From assembly GCA_010356995.1 (NCBI GenBank), contig ML996703.1, positions 310,001-374,000 of the forward strand: a DNA stretch of 64,000 nucleotides, given 5' to 3'. This DNA comes from Trichodelitschia bisporula. Taxonomy: Eukaryota; Ascomycota; Dothideomycetes; Phaeotrichales; Phaeotrichaceae. A program made the position numbers and the translations under genes. The first letter of the stretch is position 1. The number at the start of each line of letters is the position of its first letter. Below, in pieces: positions 5,247 to 39,934 of this stretch. The notes beneath the pieces were generated by a model. That model was not told where the DNA came from, searched no databases, and saw only the letters and a list, made by a program, of their open reading frames with translations.

Positions 5247-6205
5247 ATGGTGTCGCCGATTGATATCACGCCTCCTGCGACATCGCACGGCGACTCGGAC
5301 TCAACCTGCGAATCAGGCTATGCCAGCGCTACGTCTGATAATGGCGGCTTTGCGGAGATTTACTTCACCCGGCCCCACCTGAAGTACTTGAACAAGCAGC
5401 TGAGCCAGCTTGAGCCGCAGGGTATGTGCAAGCCTCTCATAATAGACCGGCAACTAACGTCATAGATATTCTGAAATGGTGCTTGATCTCTCTGCCGGGG
5501 CTGTTCCAAACCACGGCATTTGGTCTCACGGGGCTGGTTACCATCGACATGCTCTCCAAGATTGCCATTGACAACAAGTCACTGCCGCCACTCATCTTCC
5601 TCGACACACTTCACCACTTCCCGGAGACGCTGGCTTTGGTCGATCGTGTCACCGCCAAGTACCCGCAGCCTCTGCACGTGTACAAGCCGGCAGGCTGCGA
5701 GACGGCCGCGGACTTCACCGCCCAACATGGCGAGCGGTTCTGGGACGTCGACGATGAGCGCTACGACTGGGTGGCCAAGGTCGAGCCAGCGGAGCGCGCA
5801 TACGCAGAGCTGGGCGTTAAGGCCGTTCTGACGGGACGGCGTAGATCGCAGGGCGGCAAGCGCGGCGATCTGGACGTGCTCGAGATCACGGAAGCCGGGC
5901 TCATTAAAGTCAACCCGCTGGCAAACTGGACGTTTGCGCAGGTGCAGGCGTACGTGCGCGAGCACGACGTGCCGTACAACGAGCTCCTGGACCGCGGGTA
6001 CAAGAGCATTGGCGACTGGCACAGCACGCAGCCGATTCGCGAGGGCGAGGACGAGCGCGCGGGCCGGTGGCGCGGGAAGGATAAGACCGAGTGTGGTATT
6101 CACAATAAGAGGAGCCGCTATGCGCAATTTCTCATGGAGCAGGAGCGGCTGCGGGAACGGGAGGAGCTGCAGGGACGAGGGGAGCGGGTGGAGGTTAAGG
6201 CGTAG
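5247..6205 (+). CDS. MET16: Phosphoadenylyl-sulfate (PAPS) reductase
   Basis: 304 residues. Exons 5247-5421 and 5466-6205, with a 44-bp intron starting GTATGT; the phase joins correctly (GAT codon across the junction). It reduces PAPS to sulfite with thioredoxin, the third step of assimilatory sulfate reduction in the cytosol. The family signature LPGLFQTTAFGLTGLVTIDM follows the intron. The PAPS-binding region RRSQGG...GDLDVLE lies near residue 190, and the catalytic cysteine motif ECGIH lies near residue 272. Length matches other fungal Met16 proteins. The ATG context is ACCATGG. It is 1.4 kb upstream of, and on the same strand as, the ATP sulfurylase gene, which acts two steps earlier in the pathway. 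Confidence 0.95.
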
Positions 6206-7623
6206 GTGCAGCCTCGCAAGGCTGTTGCTAGTTATGGTGGATTTTGTGCTGCGCTTGGGCGTTTATGCGGCATCATGGCGCTGGGAGTTGGCTTGCGGGG
6301 GAAGGTGCTTCATGGGCTCGGCGTGGGTGGACTTTTGATCCTAAGTGTTTATATTCAGCATCGTGGGTGGCGATTATCAGGCATCTGGTAACGGATATTA
6401 TATCTAGAAGGTCCACGAACGGCTAGATTTTGAATCTAAAAAGCTTCATAGCTTAAGAGCAAGCGAGATGGTAGCACGTAAGGCGTGGGGAAAGCATGTG
6501 ATGTGCTACCACGATGTATCGTGGACTATTCCGCATTTTGAATAGACGACAAATGGCCCCGTAATCGCAATCGCGTGCTCCAGCTCGTGACCGGATGAGA
6601 GGCCAGTTTGGGAGGGTCAGAGCTCGTGATGCTTGTTCTCAATACTCGAAATGCTCTTAGGAGCCGGGGCTACGCAAAGACTTGACCTTCCAAAACTCGC
6701 AAGGTACAAGGAACCAACTTCGCGGCCAAGCGGAAAATGGCCTTGTGGCCGCGATCACGCAATTGCACTCCCCCGGCTGTGGTTTGGTAGTGTTCCGCAG
6801 ATGGCCGTGGGGAATACGCCATCGGGAAGCCGGTTGGAGCAGAATCTTACTTCTTGTCATTTTTGCCATTTTGCTGAGCTTTGGGTGATGCGCGGCGAAG
6901 CTCGGCGGGCTCTGCCGCCGTCCATGGGACGTTGCGGGTGGCTACTGTGGAAGGCGTGGTTCGCGTATGCGGATATGGTAGTCTACGGAGTTGCTGTCCT
7001 GTACCGGAGGTGGAAAGGTTTAACGGCGGTGGTTGAAGCTTTCTCGAGTAGTACATGTACCGCTGGACAGCCAACCCTCGACGTGAGATCTTTGCCGATT
7101 ACTTTTCTATCGCCGCGTGCCACCCGTCTTGTGTTGCTGATCTCCAAGATCGAAGCTACTGTAAGCACCACCTTATTCGTCCTGTGCCTTGCTTAAGAAT
7201 TCTTCTACTCCCATTCCCCCATCCCATCTACCCGCTTACTCTTTTACTCTCCGTTTCGTCCCCGCCGCTATTCCGCTTATCTCCCGCTCGTGCGCATCCA
7301 CTTCTTCCCCTTCTAGCTTCGAAATTTGCAGCATTGCGGGGCCGGGAATGGCGTCATAGCTGCGGGCTCACGGTTACTAGCCACGACGAGAGAAGATCTC
7401 TAGAAGCTAGAGCTAGAAACGCGAGTGGCAATTTGACGAGTCCCCGACGACCGTTGCCCCCCCTCCCCGAAAGTCTTTCAACGCACCACCGGCTGCAAGA
7501 GGTCTTGTTTATAATCCGAGCCGAAGAAAGTCGTCCCGCGTACCTTCTGTCCCCACGCTCCCGTCCCATCCTCATCACCCTTCACCAAAACCCTACACAA
7601 ACTCCACATCCACACTCCTCACA
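6206..7623. other. MET16-MET3 intergenic region
   Basis: 1.4 kb. Open frames at 6633-7196 and 7055-7711 have no recognisable protein pattern and overlap the pyrimidine-rich leader of MET3, so I reject them. It holds a perfect CYS3-type palindrome (separate entry). Confidence 0.5.
7348..7357 (+). promoter_or_regulatory. CYS3/MetR-type bZIP site (ATGGCGTCAT)
   Basis: ATGGCGTCAT matches the Neurospora CYS3 consensus ATGRYRYCAT at all ten positions and lies 266 bp upstream of the ATP sulfurylase start, a usual promoter distance. The consensus would occur about once per 64 kb by chance, so its position rather than its mere presence is the argument. Binding is not shown by the sequence. Confidence 0.5.
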
Positions 7624-9777
<2,154 letters not shown>

Positions 9778-20842: not shown

Positions 20843-22594
20843 CTACTCGTCATCATCCTCCTGGATCGTAGCTAGCTTGCGCTTCTTCGCCTTCGGCGCT
20901 ATGCGCACTTCCTGCAGCAGCTCACGGGGGAGATATTTCTGCGCGAGCGAGAAGGGCGTTGCGCCGGGGGCTAGAAGGCGTTGTCTGCGGCGTGTAAGCA
21001 AAATGTACCCTAGCCTCTCCCAAACCAAAACAGAAAAGCAGAAATCACAAGGACAAGAACAAACAGCCAGCACATACCTCTTCATCAACGTGACCACATC
21101 CGCCTCCTCCACCGTCTTCCGCCCGGCATGATCGGCATAAACAGCCAAATCCTCGGCAATTTGCTCGAAGAACCAGTCCGACGTCTGCGACAACGCGGCC
21201 ACTGTCTCGGCAGTGAGTTTGCCGCTGCCGCCTGCTGAGCGTGCGAATGTTGTCGCTACCTTTTTTATTACGGCAGCAGGCAGGGACGGGAACTCGATGC
21301 CCCACTTTGAGATCTGGAGTTCCTTGCGCTTGCGTTTTGCGTGCTTGAGTTGTGCGGGTTGGGCGCCGCGTTCGGCGGCTGCTTGAGCTTCGACTGGTGG
21401 GGATGAGCCGAGTGGGATAGAGGGGTCGTGGACTTGGATGTCCTCGTCGTCATCGTCGTCGTTGCCTGCGACGTCGTCCAAGTCTGGAATCCCGTAGATC
21501 ACTTCGGCCTCTTCCCGTTCCCCTGCCTCCTCCGCTTCGTCTGCTTCGTCTGCTTCGTCGCCCTCCTCCTCATCAGCATCCGTCTCATCCGCTCCAGTTT
21601 CCACATCCAGAAACTGTCTCGCAGCAGCAGCAGCAAGACTCGACCGTGGCCCCGTAATCCTCCTCTGTTCTGGAATGCGAAAAACAAACGTAGGCTCGCC
21701 ATCCGTCTCCGGCGAATCCCTCAGAGCCAAATCCCCCGTCAAGCCAGACTGTCTCCTCTCCTCCAAAAGCGCCTGCAAATCCCCCGTAAGCTCATTCGCA
21801 ATCAACCGCCCAATATCCTCCGTCAACGCCCCCTGACCCACCCCAAACCCCTCCCCCTCCTCCTCATCCCCACTCCCAACCTCAACCCCCTCAGCATCCC
21901 CCCACCCCAACCCCAAACTCCCCCTCCCCACCGCCCGTCTCCCTTCCTCCACATCTTCCTCCCTCAACCTCGGCCCCTCCCCCTCCTCAAACCAACTCCC
22001 CTCCTCCTCCTCCTCCACCGGCATACTCATCCTCGGCGCCCTCCCCGGCGGACTCGGCACCTCCCCTACATCTAGCCTACTCCTCCTCCGGGCGGATGGG
22101 TTCGCGGGACTCTCCACCCGCGCCGTCCGCCCAGCGAGCACCCGACTCAACGCCCGCAAATCATCGCGCGGCGTCTCGCGGCCCCCGCGCCCGCTCCGCC
22201 GCCGGCCTGGCGTCTGCGCTGCGCGCCGCAGGGCTAGCGCGCGAATTGCGTGTGGAGTTGTGGGCGCGCGGCGGCGTGCGGTGCCCGGTGTGCGGGGTGC
22301 GGTGCCGGGGGTGTCGCGGGGCCGAGGGGTGGGGACGGTGGGCGTGCGGGTGGTGGGTGTGCGTTGCGGGCGGGGTGTTGGGGCGGCGGAGCGTTGCGCT
22401 GCGTCGACGGAGCGTTGGATTAGGCGGCCGAGGGTGTGCAGCTGTGGGAGTTAGACCAGATAGTAGGTTAGGGAAGGGGGACGCACGTTTTCAAAGGCCG
22501 TGGGCGTAGTCGTGCCCGTCGTTTCTGCAGTTGTTCCCGCGGCGGCAGAGACACGCGGCGTCGTGCGTACGCGCTTGGTGGTTGGTTCGGCCAT
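20843..22594 (-). CDS. CENPT: CENP-T inner kinetochore histone-fold protein
   Basis: 537 residues. Exons 22594-22487, 22441-21078 and 20984-20843. The N-terminal region is rich in TP/TPR sites (ARRRAPTTPH, GRETPRDDLRALSR), the pattern known in fungal CENP-T, where Cdk-phosphorylated motifs recruit Ndc80. The middle is acidic and disordered. The C-terminal histone fold begins about residue 405 (ISKWGIEFPSLPAAVIKKV), runs through WFFEQIAEDLAVYADHAGR and VEEADVVTLMKR, and after the last intron continues into the CENP-T extension (PFSLAQKYLPRELLQEVRI) that contacts CENP-H/K. It forms a nucleosome-like complex with CENP-W at centromeres. The last intron is required to restore this helix. Confidence 0.88.
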
Positions 22595-24180: not shown

Positions 24181-25141
24181 CTATGATAGTGAATCCATCG
24201 TTGCGCATGGTAGCGTGACCTCCTGTCCGGATACGGTCCTGTGATACAACTCCCATCCATTGATAGGCGCCAACCTTTCGCTAACCCAACTAATCTTTGG
24301 AGGAATAGAGACCAATGCGTTAGCCCTCCAAATATGAGCAGCAGCCGGATCCTCTTCGACAATGAAGCAAGCAAAGATGAAAGAATCGGAGCCCCCGTAC
24401 CCGCACGCCGTAGCGAGGTCATGACTGAAAGGATACCAGGTGTATGGAGTACCCACATTCTCGGCAATACAAGCGAGTCTAACGGCATTAGAAAAAGGTA
24501 GGCCGTCTATATCGAATTAGCCAGTTTTGTGTGGCATGGAATTGTACCCAACCCGTTGCGATGATGACACGACCAGTTACCCGGTCCTGTATCGCGCGGA
24601 GTGAATCTGCGTATCCCAGTCTGACCGGGCCGCGTTTGCGGGCCTCCCAGATCATTTTGTTCACCTCCGTCAGCTTTTGTGGCGTTGCCCGTACTATCTG
24701 GAATGCCGTACGGAGTTAATTAACTGTGTGCCACTGGGCAGGATGCAACATACCCATCATTTGGGTCACTCTGAGGACCTGGCCCATGTCTGGAGGATGG
24801 CTGGAGAGGTCGCACATGTCGGAATCTGGGTCGCTCCTCATAGACGCCGGGTCAACACCTGGGTTGCTCCTCGAAGACGCTGGGTCAGCATATAGGTCGC
24901 TCAAGGGCGCTAGAGGGGTCATGCTGGAATCCATGATTCGGCGGATGGAAGCTGGGTCGCTTCTCATAGACACTGGATCAGCACCTTGGTTGCTCCTCCT
25001 ATACGCTGGGTCGGCATACAGGTCGCTCAAGGGCGCTAGCGGGTTCGGGTCGGAATCCATGATTCGCCGGATGGAAGCTGCCACGGCTGCTTCCCTCCTG
25101 TCGCAAGTTGAGGGGCCCGTGTTGTGATATGGATGGTTCAT
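24181..25141 (-). CDS. Orphan protein: tandem 42-residue repeats plus divergent L7Ae/Snu13-like fold
   Basis: 284 residues. Exons 25141-24754, 24693-24553 and 24506-24181; introns have donors GTATGT and GTTGGG and end in TAG, and phases match. Residues 23-64 and 65-106 are two copies of a 42-residue unit (SIRRIMDS...PLAPLSDLYADPA...SMRSDP). Residues about 137-220 follow the L7Ae/Snu13/Nhp2 pattern step by step: RLGYADSLRAI where Snu13 has KGANEATKTL, GRVIIATDGLPF for EFIIMAADCEP, RLACIAENVGTPYTWYPF for PLLCEDKNVPYVFVP, and HDLATACGY for VALGRACGV. Two of the three kink-turn contacts differ in kind (Asn to Ala, Glu to Asp) and the Lys is Arg. Coding is inferred from spliced frame continuity; the fold assignment is by eye. 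I know no described homolog with the repeats. Confidence 0.55.
24828..25079 (-). repeat. Tandem duplication, two 126-bp units
   Basis: Two adjacent copies at about 24828-24953 and 24954-25079, roughly 85 percent identical by eye, in frame within the L7Ae-like gene. The duplication is an exact multiple of three (42 codons), and the ends share GGAATCCATGATTCG. Confidence 0.8.
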
Positions 25142-27515
25142 GTTCGAAGCAAGGTCGGTAAACTTCCTACGTATGGATCTGTATGCTGACAGTGAGGGTG
25201 GCGATAACCTAGATGCAGAGTGATGATGTTGGGAGAAGATGCAGATGAGGAGATGGGTTAAGAAGACTTGGGGGTGGATGTGAAGGGCCCATGTTGCGTA
25301 GATGAAGGAAGGAGAATGAGAGGGTCAGCGCTTGTGCTTCCTGATGGTAGAGGAGGCAAGAACGACAGACGACGAACTGTCCCTTCCATTGTTACACGCT
25401 GCTTGACAGCTGTATTGAGCTTGCCGTGGTGATGCGGGCTGAGAAAATGATGGGCAATGGCATGCCGCAGACATCGTGGTGCCCGGTCCATCGGCTTTAC
25501 AGTCCTCCGAAATCGCGGTTGGCCGGTTTGATCGAGACATGCTACGGTGTAGTTCGTGACCATATATAGCGTGGGGTAAGGCTGGCAACTCCGAACTCGG
25601 AATGCTCGAGCGGTACTCACTCATCAAAGCATTTAGGAAGTAACCCGTTTTGGATTCTGCAGCCTCAGTGAAGTAGATGGAAGCGCTAAATCGGCTCCAG
25701 CCCTGTAACCGCACTGATGGAGAGTGCTCGAGGGCGCCGAGGAGGTCGTCGAGCCTGCCCTGGTAGATGCGGCCCGACAAGGCGGATGACATCCTGGCAT
25801 ATAGATGAAGATAATCTCGCTAGTCACATTGCCGGGATGCAAACGGGTGGTCTAATCGCAGATTGTCAACAACAGCCCTTCCAACCTCCGGCGTTCTCGT
25901 TTTCCTGCTTCCAATTGTCGTCAGCTGCAAATGAGCCACGAGGCTAGCTGACGATACCCCGCACAGTACGCTATGAGGGGGGAGGAGCAAGGATGTGACT
26001 CCCTCCACACCCTCCTTCAGGGCTACGGAGACATGTGATCATCCAACGCTGCGGCAGCGGCTGCACGGCGTGCACTACGGTGCTGTCGACATTCTCGGTA
26101 TCACCATGGCTTTCTTTTTACGGGATGCGAGGCAATGGGAGGCGAGTGAGGCCCTCGGGGGGCTGCCGGGAGAACATTCGGCGCCGCCAACGAGCAAGTC
26201 ATCGCCATATTGCCTGCAGCGGGGCCGAGAAAGAGGCATCTGCAGATTGACCGCCAATTGGACAGGGCCACTCTATGCAGAGAGAGGTGCAGACGAGCGT
26301 TGCAGAGTGGCGTATGGCGGAGCACCGGGGGGCATGGCAGTGTGGCAGTTGAGGGCTAAGGAAGGAGAAGCGGAGGATTGGCTGTCAAGCAGAGACGCTT
26401 GAAGCGCTTGAACGAATCTGCCCTACGTTCTCTTCCTTAACCGCCGATGCAGTTGGTGCCAATCAGTTGTTGTAGCAGGCCAGTCGCGGTGGTGAGAGAG
26501 AGCAAGCTTCATCAACGTTTGAGCTTATTGCTTGGCGCGTAATGGCGTAGACTGAAGCGATTGAGGGAGAGAGAAGCTGGGGGAGGTGGGAAACAACAAC
26601 ATGATACGATGCCTCTGGCAGAGATGAAGGGGTTGGGATAGGATGGGAGAGAGGATGCAGAAGCAAACGCCCGGCTCCATGTCCAATAGACGCGATGGAT
26701 TGATGACCTTTGAGCGCCCGAAACTCAGCAAAAGAGAAAGAAGTTCCGCGCTCCGGCCCGCCAGTGCTGCTTGCCAGTTGCCTCGCATATCGTCCCGCGT
26801 TGCCGCGAGTCGTTGCTGCTTCTCGTTCCCGTTTGTCGACACCATCAACTCACCTTTCTTGTCCTCCGTCTCTCTTCCTCTCTCTTTATCGACTCTTTCC
26901 CTACATCTCAATCAGCAGTATTTGTTGAAGTCTGCAAAATTATAGTTGCTGTACTTTTCGTCTTAATAATTAGCGTGTGCGGTTCGTGGGCCGTAGCTTC
27001 TCATCACCTCCTCAACAGCATCACCCCGCCTGCCGCCTGGACTGGTATCTCATCCCACCTCCCTCGACCGCTCCTCTCTTTGATTGCTACGTTGCTCGTC
27101 CTGGGCAAATACCCAACCCAGCCCATCATCACCGTTAAGAGCGACAATCGTCTCTCGAGGTCTTATATTGCAGTCTGCAATTCTGCATAGCCAGTCACAA
27201 CTTGTTTTGTCTATTACGTCGAGTGTCTGCTATTCCGACAACCTACAGCTTTGTGCTGCAGTGGGCCGTGCTACATCGCTGCTATCCGCCCCCAGCAATT
27301 CCCCCAAACACCGACACCACCAAACTTCCCCGACGACCGCGACAAGCTATCGGTAAGCAGAAGCTCTCCCGGTGCATCCTACCGACGTAGACCATCTCAT
27401 TATCGCATTTGCCTAACCATTTGTAACTGCAGAGTCTGTTCCCACTACATCGCACGACTCGCACCAGCTCCCGCACCCGTACCCGCACTCCGCAACTCTT
27501 CTCACATCTTTCGCC
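25142..27515. other. Gene-poor 2.4 kb upstream of RAC1
   Basis: Apart from one doubtful minus-strand open frame (25325-25792, separate entry) I see no gene. 26600-27500 is the long CT-rich leader and promoter of RAC1. Confidence 0.45.
25325..25792 (-). CDS. Doubtful hypothetical ORF (MSSALSGRIYQG...)
   Basis: 155 codons from an ATG. The first 58 residues (SGRIYQGRLDDLLGALEHSP, then YFTEAAESKTGYFLNALM) look like real protein. A GTGAGT donor-like site follows immediately at about residue 58, so the true gene may be spliced and the rest intronic or leader. Downstream acceptors could not be chosen with confidence. I do not recognise the product. It sits head to tail with the L7Ae-like gene, 180 bp upstream of its start. 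Confidence 0.25.
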   Translation of the reverse strand: MSSALSGRIYQGRLDDLLGALEHSPSVRLQGWSRFSASIYFTEAAESKTGYFLNALMSEYRSSIPSSELPALPHAIYGHELHRSMSRSNRPTAISEDCKADGPGTTMSAACHCPSFSQPASPRQAQYSCQAACNNGRDSSSSVVLASSTIRKHKR

Positions 27516-33333: not shown

Positions 33334-34353
33334 TTACATGTACGGAAACTCGCCGTCTGGCCACCTTTGCTGGTACTCGGTCAACGTGCTCCACCCGCTC
33401 CGCGTAAGCCCGCCCCGCTCTCCAGCCTCGTTATTTTGCGCTCGCCGGAAGTCTCTCCTGAATGCACGCCCGCTAACCACCTTCAAGCTGGCCGAAGGTC
33501 CCTCGGTTCCCCAGCAAACCATCATATCGTCGGGTTCCCCCTCGATGCATCCGGCCATCCATGTCAACAGGCCTGCCAACTTGGTAATCTCCATGACGCC
33601 AGTCAAGATCACCGGCCCCCATTTCTTCAAGTACTCCTCTTTCTTCCCCATCAGTAACCGGCTGCCATCTCCACCCCACACAACCACTGTTTCCAACCCA
33701 GACACACCCTCCAGGATCCTTTTCACGACAGACACGTTCCCTGTAGACGGAGACGGGAAGCGCCAGGCCAGTAGATTGATCCGCAGCACGCGTAAACCCG
33801 GTACGTCGGTGGTCAACCGCGTGGGAACTTCAAGCCCCTCTTTGGCAAACGGCCAGTACAAGGCGGATGCGAAGCTAGGCACATTTTTGCAGATGTAGGA
33901 TTCCCAGCTCGGGGCTGTGGCGTAACATGTGTAGGTCATGTTGTCCAGTTCGCGGAGGTCGAGTTCGACGTCCCTGATTAGTGCCGCGGCGGCGGGACGG
34001 TGCTTGAAAAAGAGGTGTGCGTGCTTGGCCAGCGTGAAGCTGAAGGTATTGCCGTAGAGGACGTCGATGGGGTGTTCGGAGTGGATGCGGCGGCATGTTC
34101 GGAGGAGGGCGGTTGAGAGGTGGGGGATATAGCGGCTGGATGGTCGGGAGGCGTCTGAGTAGGGGGAGGGGTCGACGATTTGGGACGGGGTGGAGAGAAC
34201 CAGCTCATAGATTATGTTGCGGAGCTCCGCGGGGAGGCGGAAGAAGATGGATGAGTCCTGGCTATTGACTTCATGGGTCGTGGCGGAGTCGACCGCTTCG
34301 ATGTTGGGGATAACAAGGGCTGAAGTCTGCGTGATGGTCCGGGTTAAGGACAT
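33334..34353 (-). CDS. DUF7730/2EXR-type F-box-like protein
   Basis: 339 residues, single exon. Residues about 35-55 carry FFRLPAELRNIIYELVL, the motif of the fungal 2EXR/DUF7730 group, whose F-box-like helix is very widely expanded in Pezizomycotina. Further conserved elements are LSTALLRTCRRIHSEHPIDVLYGNTFSF, typical of these proteins. No catalytic motif. Function is unknown; binding to Skp1 has been suggested for relatives but is not shown here. No introns, unlike most neighbours. Confidence 0.8.
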   Translation of the reverse strand: MSLTRTITQTSALVIPNIEAVDSATTHEVNSQDSSIFFRLPAELRNIIYELVLSTPSQIVDPSPYSDASRPSSRYIPHLSTALLRTCRRIHSEHPIDVLYGNTFSFTLAKHAHLFFKHRPAAAALIRDVELDLRELDNMTYTCYATAPSWESYICKNVPSFASALYWPFAKEGLEVPTRLTTDVPGLRVLRINLLAWRFPSPSTGNVSVVKRILEGVSGLETVVVWGGDGSRLLMGKKEEYLKKWGPVILTGVMEITKLAGLLTWMAGCIEGEPDDMMVCWGTEGPSASLKVVSGRAFRRDFRRAQNNEAGERGGLTRSGWSTLTEYQQRWPDGEFPYM

Positions 34354-34784
34354 GGTGGAAATCTGTGGAGACAGAATCCACGTGGGGAAGGCATGATTTT
34401 ATTCATATCTCAGCTAGCCATTCCTATCCACTCTCGGCGTGCAGTAAGCCGGCATCCTCAAGACCTATCTCTAGAACTAGGTGCTGTTGGTGGCTGATAC
34501 TAAAGATACCATACAGACCTGTGGCGTGTTGGTTGGAGTGTTGGACGATTTGGCTAGGAAAAAGCAACGGGTTTTGGGCTGAAAACCCCAGCCAGGCTGA
34601 GCCTGCGGAGTGAGTGTCAGCTTCTGACCAAGCGGTATTCCGTTAGTCAGGACTTCGAGATATAGGTAAGAGGTTGCATTGTCGAACGTCGTGATTAGTC
34701 TTTTTGCTGACGCCGGCCGTGAAGCCGCGGTTGCTTAGGGGTGGCAGGGCGGCATTGAAATGTCTACAATCGCCTAAACGCCGA

Positions 34785-38753: not shown

Positions 38754-39554
38754 CTAAGCTCTCCGCCGCATACTCCCACCTCGAACAGGCTTATAGGGAA
38801 CAACCTCCGGAATCGTGACAGCCTCAATCCCGCCGTCAACCCCCAAGCGCAGCCTCTTGACATCTCCACCCTCAAACCTAACCTCCACCTCTCGCGCAGC
38901 TTCATCGCACCCCTCAACCCCCTCAACCCCAAACTCCCCCCCTCCCGTCCCCACCCACTCCCTCAACACCCCAACCATCTCCCCCCTCTTGACCAGTGAC
39001 ACACACTCCCTCCTAACCCCCCTCGCAAACCCCTCCAAGTCCCCTCCCCCCTTCCTCCTCAAGTACTTCTGCTCCAACCCCGCAAGCGGCACACTCTCCG
39101 GCAGCGTATGCCTCAGCACCCTGACCCCCTCTCCATCCTGCCCCACCAGAAACACAAACCACGGCACACTGAACCGTCCGCTTCCGGTATCAAACCCTTC
39201 GATCCGTATCCCTACCACTTCGCCCCCGTCCACGGCATTTGGGTCTGGGTCTTGCACCCTGAACAGTGTGAGTCCGGTGCAGGCGCGGTGGATGTTCGCT
39301 GTATTGGTCTCGGTCTGTGCGGTGATAGCGGTGAGGGCTTGGGACGCGCCTGGTAATTGTAGAGAGGCGGTGAGCTCGGTGTGCAGGGCGGGCCAGGACA
39401 GGAGGGTGGTACGGAGGAGGGAGCGGCGGAGGCGTAGGGTGGAGACTGCGGGGTTAGCTGGGTTGAGATTGCGGGGGGAGGGAGGCGTACTTTCTGCGCG
39501 CAGGGCGGTTAGTTCTGCGTCTAAACTCGAGGTATCTGATGGTATGGGATCCAT
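38754..39554 (-). CDS. MCM21: CENP-O/Mcm21 kinetochore protein
   Basis: 251 residues. Exons 39554-39491 and 39445-38754. The N-terminus is a short coiled coil (SLDAELTALRAE). The CENP-O core shows HRACTGLTLFRVQDPDP, GIRIEGFDTGSGRFSVPWFVFLV, LRHTLPESVPLAGLEQKYL and LEGFARGVRRECVSL, in the order typical of the tandem-RWD Mcm21 family. The protein is part of the COMA/CENP-O complex at the inner kinetochore. The intron is 45 bp with a good CTAAC branch site but is stop-free and a multiple of three; retention would add 15 residues. An 85-codon open extension upstream of the chosen ATG is not protein-like. Confidence 0.82.
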   Translation of the reverse strand: MDPIPSDTSSLDAELTALRAESTPPSPRNLNPANPAVSTLRLRRSLLRTTLLSWPALHTELTASLQLPGASQALTAITAQTETNTANIHRACTGLTLFRVQDPDPNAVDGGEVVGIRIEGFDTGSGRFSVPWFVFLVGQDGEGVRVLRHTLPESVPLAGLEQKYLRRKGGGDLEGFARGVRRECVSLVKRGEMVGVLREWVGTGGGEFGVEGVEGCDEAAREVEVRFEGGDVKRLRLGVDGGIEAVTIPEVVPYKPVRGGSMRRRA

Positions 39555-39934
39555 TGTTGGGGTTTGGTGTGGTGTTGTGGAGCGATGACGTTGTGAGGCG
39601 CGTATTGTGCATTGACGCGTCGTGGTGTTGGACGCGTTGATGGGCTTCCGAGGATGACTAAGCAGTGCAAGGCCGATGTCACATGACATATACTTACCCG
39701 GCAAGCTATGAAACCGACCACTGGAAGCTTGGAGCGACATCACGAGGAAATAGTTTGGCAAAAAGAATACAATTGATGGCCATCTATCTATGATAAGCCT
39801 CGCTTGCACAAGACACGAAGATTAACAGCCCCCAACGACCCATAGCCAGTTTTTACCGTAGTTGTGTCTAGATCGCTCCGCCCCTAACGCTGAAGAAGCC
39901 CATCGAACCTAGAACACCTTCAAGCAGAGGACCT

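Follow-up and report, generated by a model that had tools for sequence, protein, structure and literature searches.

The window analysed here, meaning the whole stretch of 64,000 nucleotides of Trichodelitschia bisporula DNA taken from contig ML996703.1, has a GC content of 51–65% per 2 kb. On its minus strand, between positions 25141 and 24181, we found a small putative gene for which a three-exon model gives an intact protein of 284 residues followed by a stop codon. The gene is located between CMS1 (plus strand, frame to 23656) and a gene encoding a Ras-family GTPase (plus strand, from about 27.5 kb). When 20 ORFs of the window were scanned, matches were obtained to Sec2, PAPS reductase, ATP sulfurylase/APS kinase, an OPT transporter, CENP-T, CMS1, a UBX protein, GPI2, CENP-O, the Ras-family GTPase, a fungal transcription factor and a syntaxin-like protein. 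Judged by this gene content, the window resembles part of a filamentous ascomycete chromosome. The PAPS reductase and ATP sulfurylase/APS kinase genes form a sulfate assimilation pair on the plus strand (5414–9774), about 2.3 kb apart, while the kinetochore genes CENP-T and CENP-O, at 20846–22450 and 38757–39821, are separated by less than 20 kb. A predicted fungal gene at 33337–34398 shows a match to DUF7730, accompanied by a 2EXR match below the cut-off of that family. Just upstream of the three-exon gene, on the same strand, lies an open frame of 164 codons (25328–25819), in which a GTGAGT near 25620 resembles a donor site; it gave no Pfam match above the cut-off and is possibly another small gene.

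The organization of the gene is as follows, all features being on the minus strand. Exon 1 (24754–25141) begins with the ATG, holds 129 codons and one further base, and encodes an acidic, Ser/Pro/Asp-rich N-terminal tail. It is followed by intron 1 (24694–24753; 60 nt, GTATGT...AGATAG) and by exon 2 (24553–24693), which encodes the first half of an L7Ae-like domain, including the k-turn pocket G-Y-A-D-S-L-R. Intron 2 (24507–24552; 46 nt, GTTGGG...ATATAG) interrupts the region encoding the GRVIIATDGLPF motif, and exon 3 (24181–24506) completes the domain with its second half and continues into a C-terminal extension of about 55–60 residues, ending with the stop codon. A three-exon minus-strand gene for 284 residues had been proposed in the initial annotation, and the spliced frame indeed runs intact to its stop and contains all of the motifs that were quoted for the second half of the protein.

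The choice of splice sites was assessed by pairing consensus-like donors within 400 nt with two nearby acceptors of intron 1, any pairing that created a stop at the junction being set to be skipped. Among the six pairings listed, an open frame starting with ATG results only when the donor at 24753 (GTATGT) is joined to the TAG. A looser enumeration, in which every GT or GC was allowed as donor and every AG as acceptor, yields 16 open frames, with the proposed model among them. The acceptor of intron 1 is a tandem CAG/TAG (24694–24700), where the CAG precedes the in-frame TAG by 4 nt and breaks the frame, and this is a real weakness of the gene model. Acceptor choice at this site would decide whether the L7Ae-like product or a frameshifted one is made.

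Codon usage was scored with a model trained on 14 ORFs of the window, 13 of which have a Pfam match. Exons 1, 2 and 3 reach 0.038, 0.095 and −0.092, respectively, and for each exon the other five frames score lower. When left out in turn, the training ORFs range from 0.011 to 0.244; in sampled intergenic windows the mean is −0.329 and the maximum 0.034, with the 95% and 99% points at −0.070 and −0.009. Exons 1 and 2 thus look coding, since both exceed the intergenic maximum, while exon 3 falls within the intergenic range and below its 95% point. The GC3 of exon 3 is 0.50, compared with 0.634–0.774 in the 14 training ORFs. The low score and GC3 of exon 3 are what might be expected if the locus were a decaying duplicate of a Snu13/Nhp2/eL8-type gene, a pseudogene or nearly so, with pocket changes reflecting relaxed selection. 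The frame-breaking effect of the nearer intron 1 acceptor and the tandem duplication carried by the tail point in the same direction. Yet, the 284 codons are free of stops across the joined exons, the pocket glycine and the VIIA.D..P, PY and ACG motifs are retained, and the RIP indices of the gene differ from those of the window by less than one standard deviation, apart from TpA/ApT in exon 3, where the difference is just over one. Such decay seems unlikely to us. Decay specifically of the RIP type was also considered, and it is not indicated, as the indices of the gene are close to the window mean.

The tail encoded by exon 1 (residues 1–129) has a pI of 4.9, compared with about 7 for the C-terminal half of the protein. 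We determined that it contains two adjacent copies of a 126-nt (42-codon) unit, located on the minus strand at 24947–25072 (copy 1) and 24821–24946 (copy 2), which are 85% identical and differ at 19 positions, 12 of the differences being counted as nonsynonymous. The dN/dS ratio between the copies is 0.49 in frame, and the other two frames give 1.38 and 0.45; the closeness of 0.49 to 0.45 could be read in favour of decay, although these values are not diagnostic. No further copies were found within the window by tblastn, the next matches having E values of 1.4 for the repeat and 4.8 for the domain, and the exon 1 frame matched no Pfam or NCBIfam family. The two 42-residue units, earlier described as unlike anything known, are thus a real repeat, but one that amounts to a single tandem duplication.

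The region following the tail shows similarity to the L7Ae superfamily in several comparisons. Pfam Ribosomal_L7Ae (PF01248) aligns with residues 139–212 with an E value of 0.0011 for the full protein (19.0 bits) and 1.8e-4 for the trimmed domain (21.6 bits), both below the gathering cut-off of 22.1 bits. The NCBIfam eL8 model (TIGR03677) matches at E 3.1e-5 and 23.9 bits, against an equivalog cut-off of 134.6 bits. A phmmer search of the PDB (E up to 10) is led by L7Ae (2.1e-4), Snu13, eL8 and Nhp2 among the best 60 of 70 matches, and hhalign comparison with L7Ae gives a probability of 72.5% and E 3.3e-5 over 74 columns, in line with the homology proposed initially.

To these curated families we added an L7Ae profile of 81 rows, consisting of 77 archaeal sequences (from 80 loci, three of which were dropped as duplicates, short or ambiguous) and four PDB fragments taken from the query's own matches. 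When all 1298 unspliced stop-free segments of at least 30 residues in the window were ranked against this profile, the exon 3 frame came first (9.2 bits) and the exon 2 frame second (8.6 bits), followed by the next segment at 3.5 bits. The two frames match successive halves of the profile in colinear order, and splicing lifts the score from about 9 to 28.2 bits, with an E value of 2.4e-7 in a local set of 3301 sequences that includes 2000 shuffles of the domain, the best of which scores 9.0 bits. The single exons are not significant, because their 8.6–9.2 bits are about those of the best shuffle; the summed domain is. Correspondingly small signals were seen for the exons in other searches: exon 2 alone matches L7Ae in Pfam at E 0.045, and against the PDB (E up to 10) it finds four unrelated weak matches and no L7Ae chain; exon 3 alone has no Pfam match, and neither of the two exons has a match in NCBIfam. 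Folding of exon 3, either alone (pLDDT 38.5) or with 31 archaeal rows of the 39 listed (pLDDT 49.7), gave models too poor to interpret. At the level of sequence comparison, the homology of residues 139–212 to the L7Ae superfamily is beyond chance. Viral contigs scanned with the spliced domain produced three pattern matches, of which none was confirmed as a relative.

The claim that the second half follows Snu13 motif by motif stands as far as superfamily homology is concerned but was overstated, because the leading PDB chains (among the best 60 of 70 matches) include L7Ae, Snu13, eL8 and Nhp2 alike. Only 18 of the 45 columns conserved at 95% or more in the profile are identical in the fungal protein, two of the 18 being in its poorly aligned tail, and the Pfam cut-off is narrowly missed. 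The retained features comprise the pocket glycine (column 35), the VIIA.D..P strand, PY and ACG. A conserved glycine about 15 residues ahead of a hydrophobic cluster is given as a mark of the superfamily in one study (PMC2746813), and the fungal protein carries it, with the glycine of LGYAD followed by VII at +16 to +18.

Differences affect the RNA-binding pocket. The three k-turn contact columns, which hold Asn, Glu and Lys in all 81 rows of the profile, a figure biased upward because the rows were chosen by similarity to L7Ae and the archaeal ones were found partly via a pattern containing the Asn-Glu-Lys stretch, are occupied by Ala, Asp and Arg in the fungal protein, just as had been noted at the outset. 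In human 15.5K these contacts are presumably numbered Asn40, Glu41 and Lys44. Loop 9 is reported to tune k-turn binding through contacts of Snu13 V93, S94 and R95 and their archaeal equivalents (PMC8413462). We observed that the corresponding residues are replaced in the fungal protein, with a 3-residue insertion relative to the Snu13 chain 5ewr_A, in a part of the alignment where confidence is low. Judged from these alignments, Asn and loop 9 are replaced, the Glu-to-Asp and Lys-to-Arg changes are conservative, and the pocket glycine is retained, a residue on which specific RNA binding by relatives is described to depend (PMC3017548). Neither the three contact residues nor the loop 9 residues of the k-turn-binding L7Ae/Snu13 group are present, which argues for lost or changed k-turn recognition.

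The suggestion that RNA binding is altered or lost, as in Gadd45, goes further than the residues allow. Loss of RNA binding is not readable from them, because, among 14 L30e-like sequences from archaea, the Asn is absent in 12 and the Glu likewise in 12, and because Gadd45a is itself reported to bind RNA (PMC3017548). The L30e-like set was assembled from the second PF01248 matches of 16 archaeal genomes, two of which provided no locus; we take these second matches to be L30e. Their variability, including Arg at the Lys column in 5 of the 14, raises the alternative that the fungal protein is a functional RNA binder with L30e-like specificity, using another set of residues for a k-turn or a related internal loop. 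The RNA binding described for Gadd45a is in keeping with this, as is exon 2 alone, which leans to the L30e-like profile (12.3 bits against 9.1 bits for L7Ae). The whole domain, in contrast, scores 28.2 bits with the L7Ae profile and 12.5 bits with the L30e-like one, the C-terminal half of the protein is neutral, and Ala is found at the Asn column in none of the 14 sequences. We regard an L30e-like binder as improbable, to about the same degree as decay.

We also weighed whether the protein is an already known, fast-evolving ascomycete subunit of the L7Ae superfamily, e.g., of RNase P/MRP or another RNP, with orthologs that have been annotated. Fungal RNP subunits of the L7Ae fold can diverge, and this general property would accommodate the low similarity seen here. 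However, Ribosomal_L7Ae is the sole Pfam family found with the full protein at E up to 10, and the scores are far apart: among the best 60 of 275 matches of an archaeal L7Ae profile, Snu13 chains reach about 81–104 bits and Nhp2 about 71–86 bits, compared with about 28 bits for the fungal protein with a similar L7Ae profile. A known subunit thus appears to be the least probable of the alternatives, and we consider it very unlikely. Among the literature matches listed, from a search that covered few subscription journals, no title or abstract reports such a fungal protein.

Most likely, the locus is a small gene with two introns whose product is an L7Ae relative that has diverged strongly, with its pocket altered and its tail extended through one tandem duplication. 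The function of the protein can be proposed with less assurance. The reading to which we give about an even chance is that the gene is real and codes for a paralogue within the L7Ae/L30e superfamily that has diverged strongly, with changed k-turn recognition and an adaptor role. Its domain would keep the alpha-beta-alpha fold and would no longer recognise standard box C/D-type k-turns. The protein would most likely be the adaptor of an RNP or of a regulatory complex, acting through protein contacts, and might retain weak or altered RNA contacts via the preserved Gly/Arg side of the pocket. As for the acidic tail, it probably forms a flexible linker, in which the tandem duplication was tolerated. 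A more specific version, which we advance tentatively and hold to be clearly less probable, is that of a protein restricted to one fungal lineage: after duplication of an L7Ae-type core, its k-turn pocket and loop 9 would have been remodelled and splicing would have attached a disordered repeat tail, so that a core RNP fold acquired a new RNA or protein target.

If the proposed reading is correct, the gene would offer a natural test of how the target of a highly conserved RNA-binding fold can change, with key k-turn contacts altered while the pocket glycine and the core are kept. Nothing already known would be overturned. Ordinary annotation can miss a gene of this kind, because its score lies just under the Pfam cut-off.

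Gadd45 belongs to the same superfamily and also keeps the glycine (PMC3017548). None of the best 60 of the 70 PDB matches of the fungal protein is a Gadd45 chain. We know of no Gadd45 protein with a tandem-repeat tail. In the case of L30e (eL30), the fungal LGYADSLRAI resembles MGFRESLKAI of one archaeal L30e-like sequence. The L30e-like score hardly rises when the second half of the domain is included (12.5 bits for the whole, 12.3 for exon 2); eL30 chains in the PDB match at E 0.11 or worse among the best 60 of 70. Archaeal L7Ae and its eukaryotic counterparts Snu13, Nhp2 and eL8 differ from the fungal protein in that the latter has Ala/Asp/Arg for Asn/Glu/Lys, a replaced and longer loop 9 and extensions at both ends, the N-terminal one being a long acidic tail, and scores below the curated cut-offs. 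It nevertheless aligns colinearly with these same proteins over about 75 residues and shares the pocket glycine, the VIIA.D..P strand, PY and ACG with them, and it is most likely a fast-diverging fungal paralogue of the L7Ae/L30e superfamily that would no longer be a standard k-turn binder.
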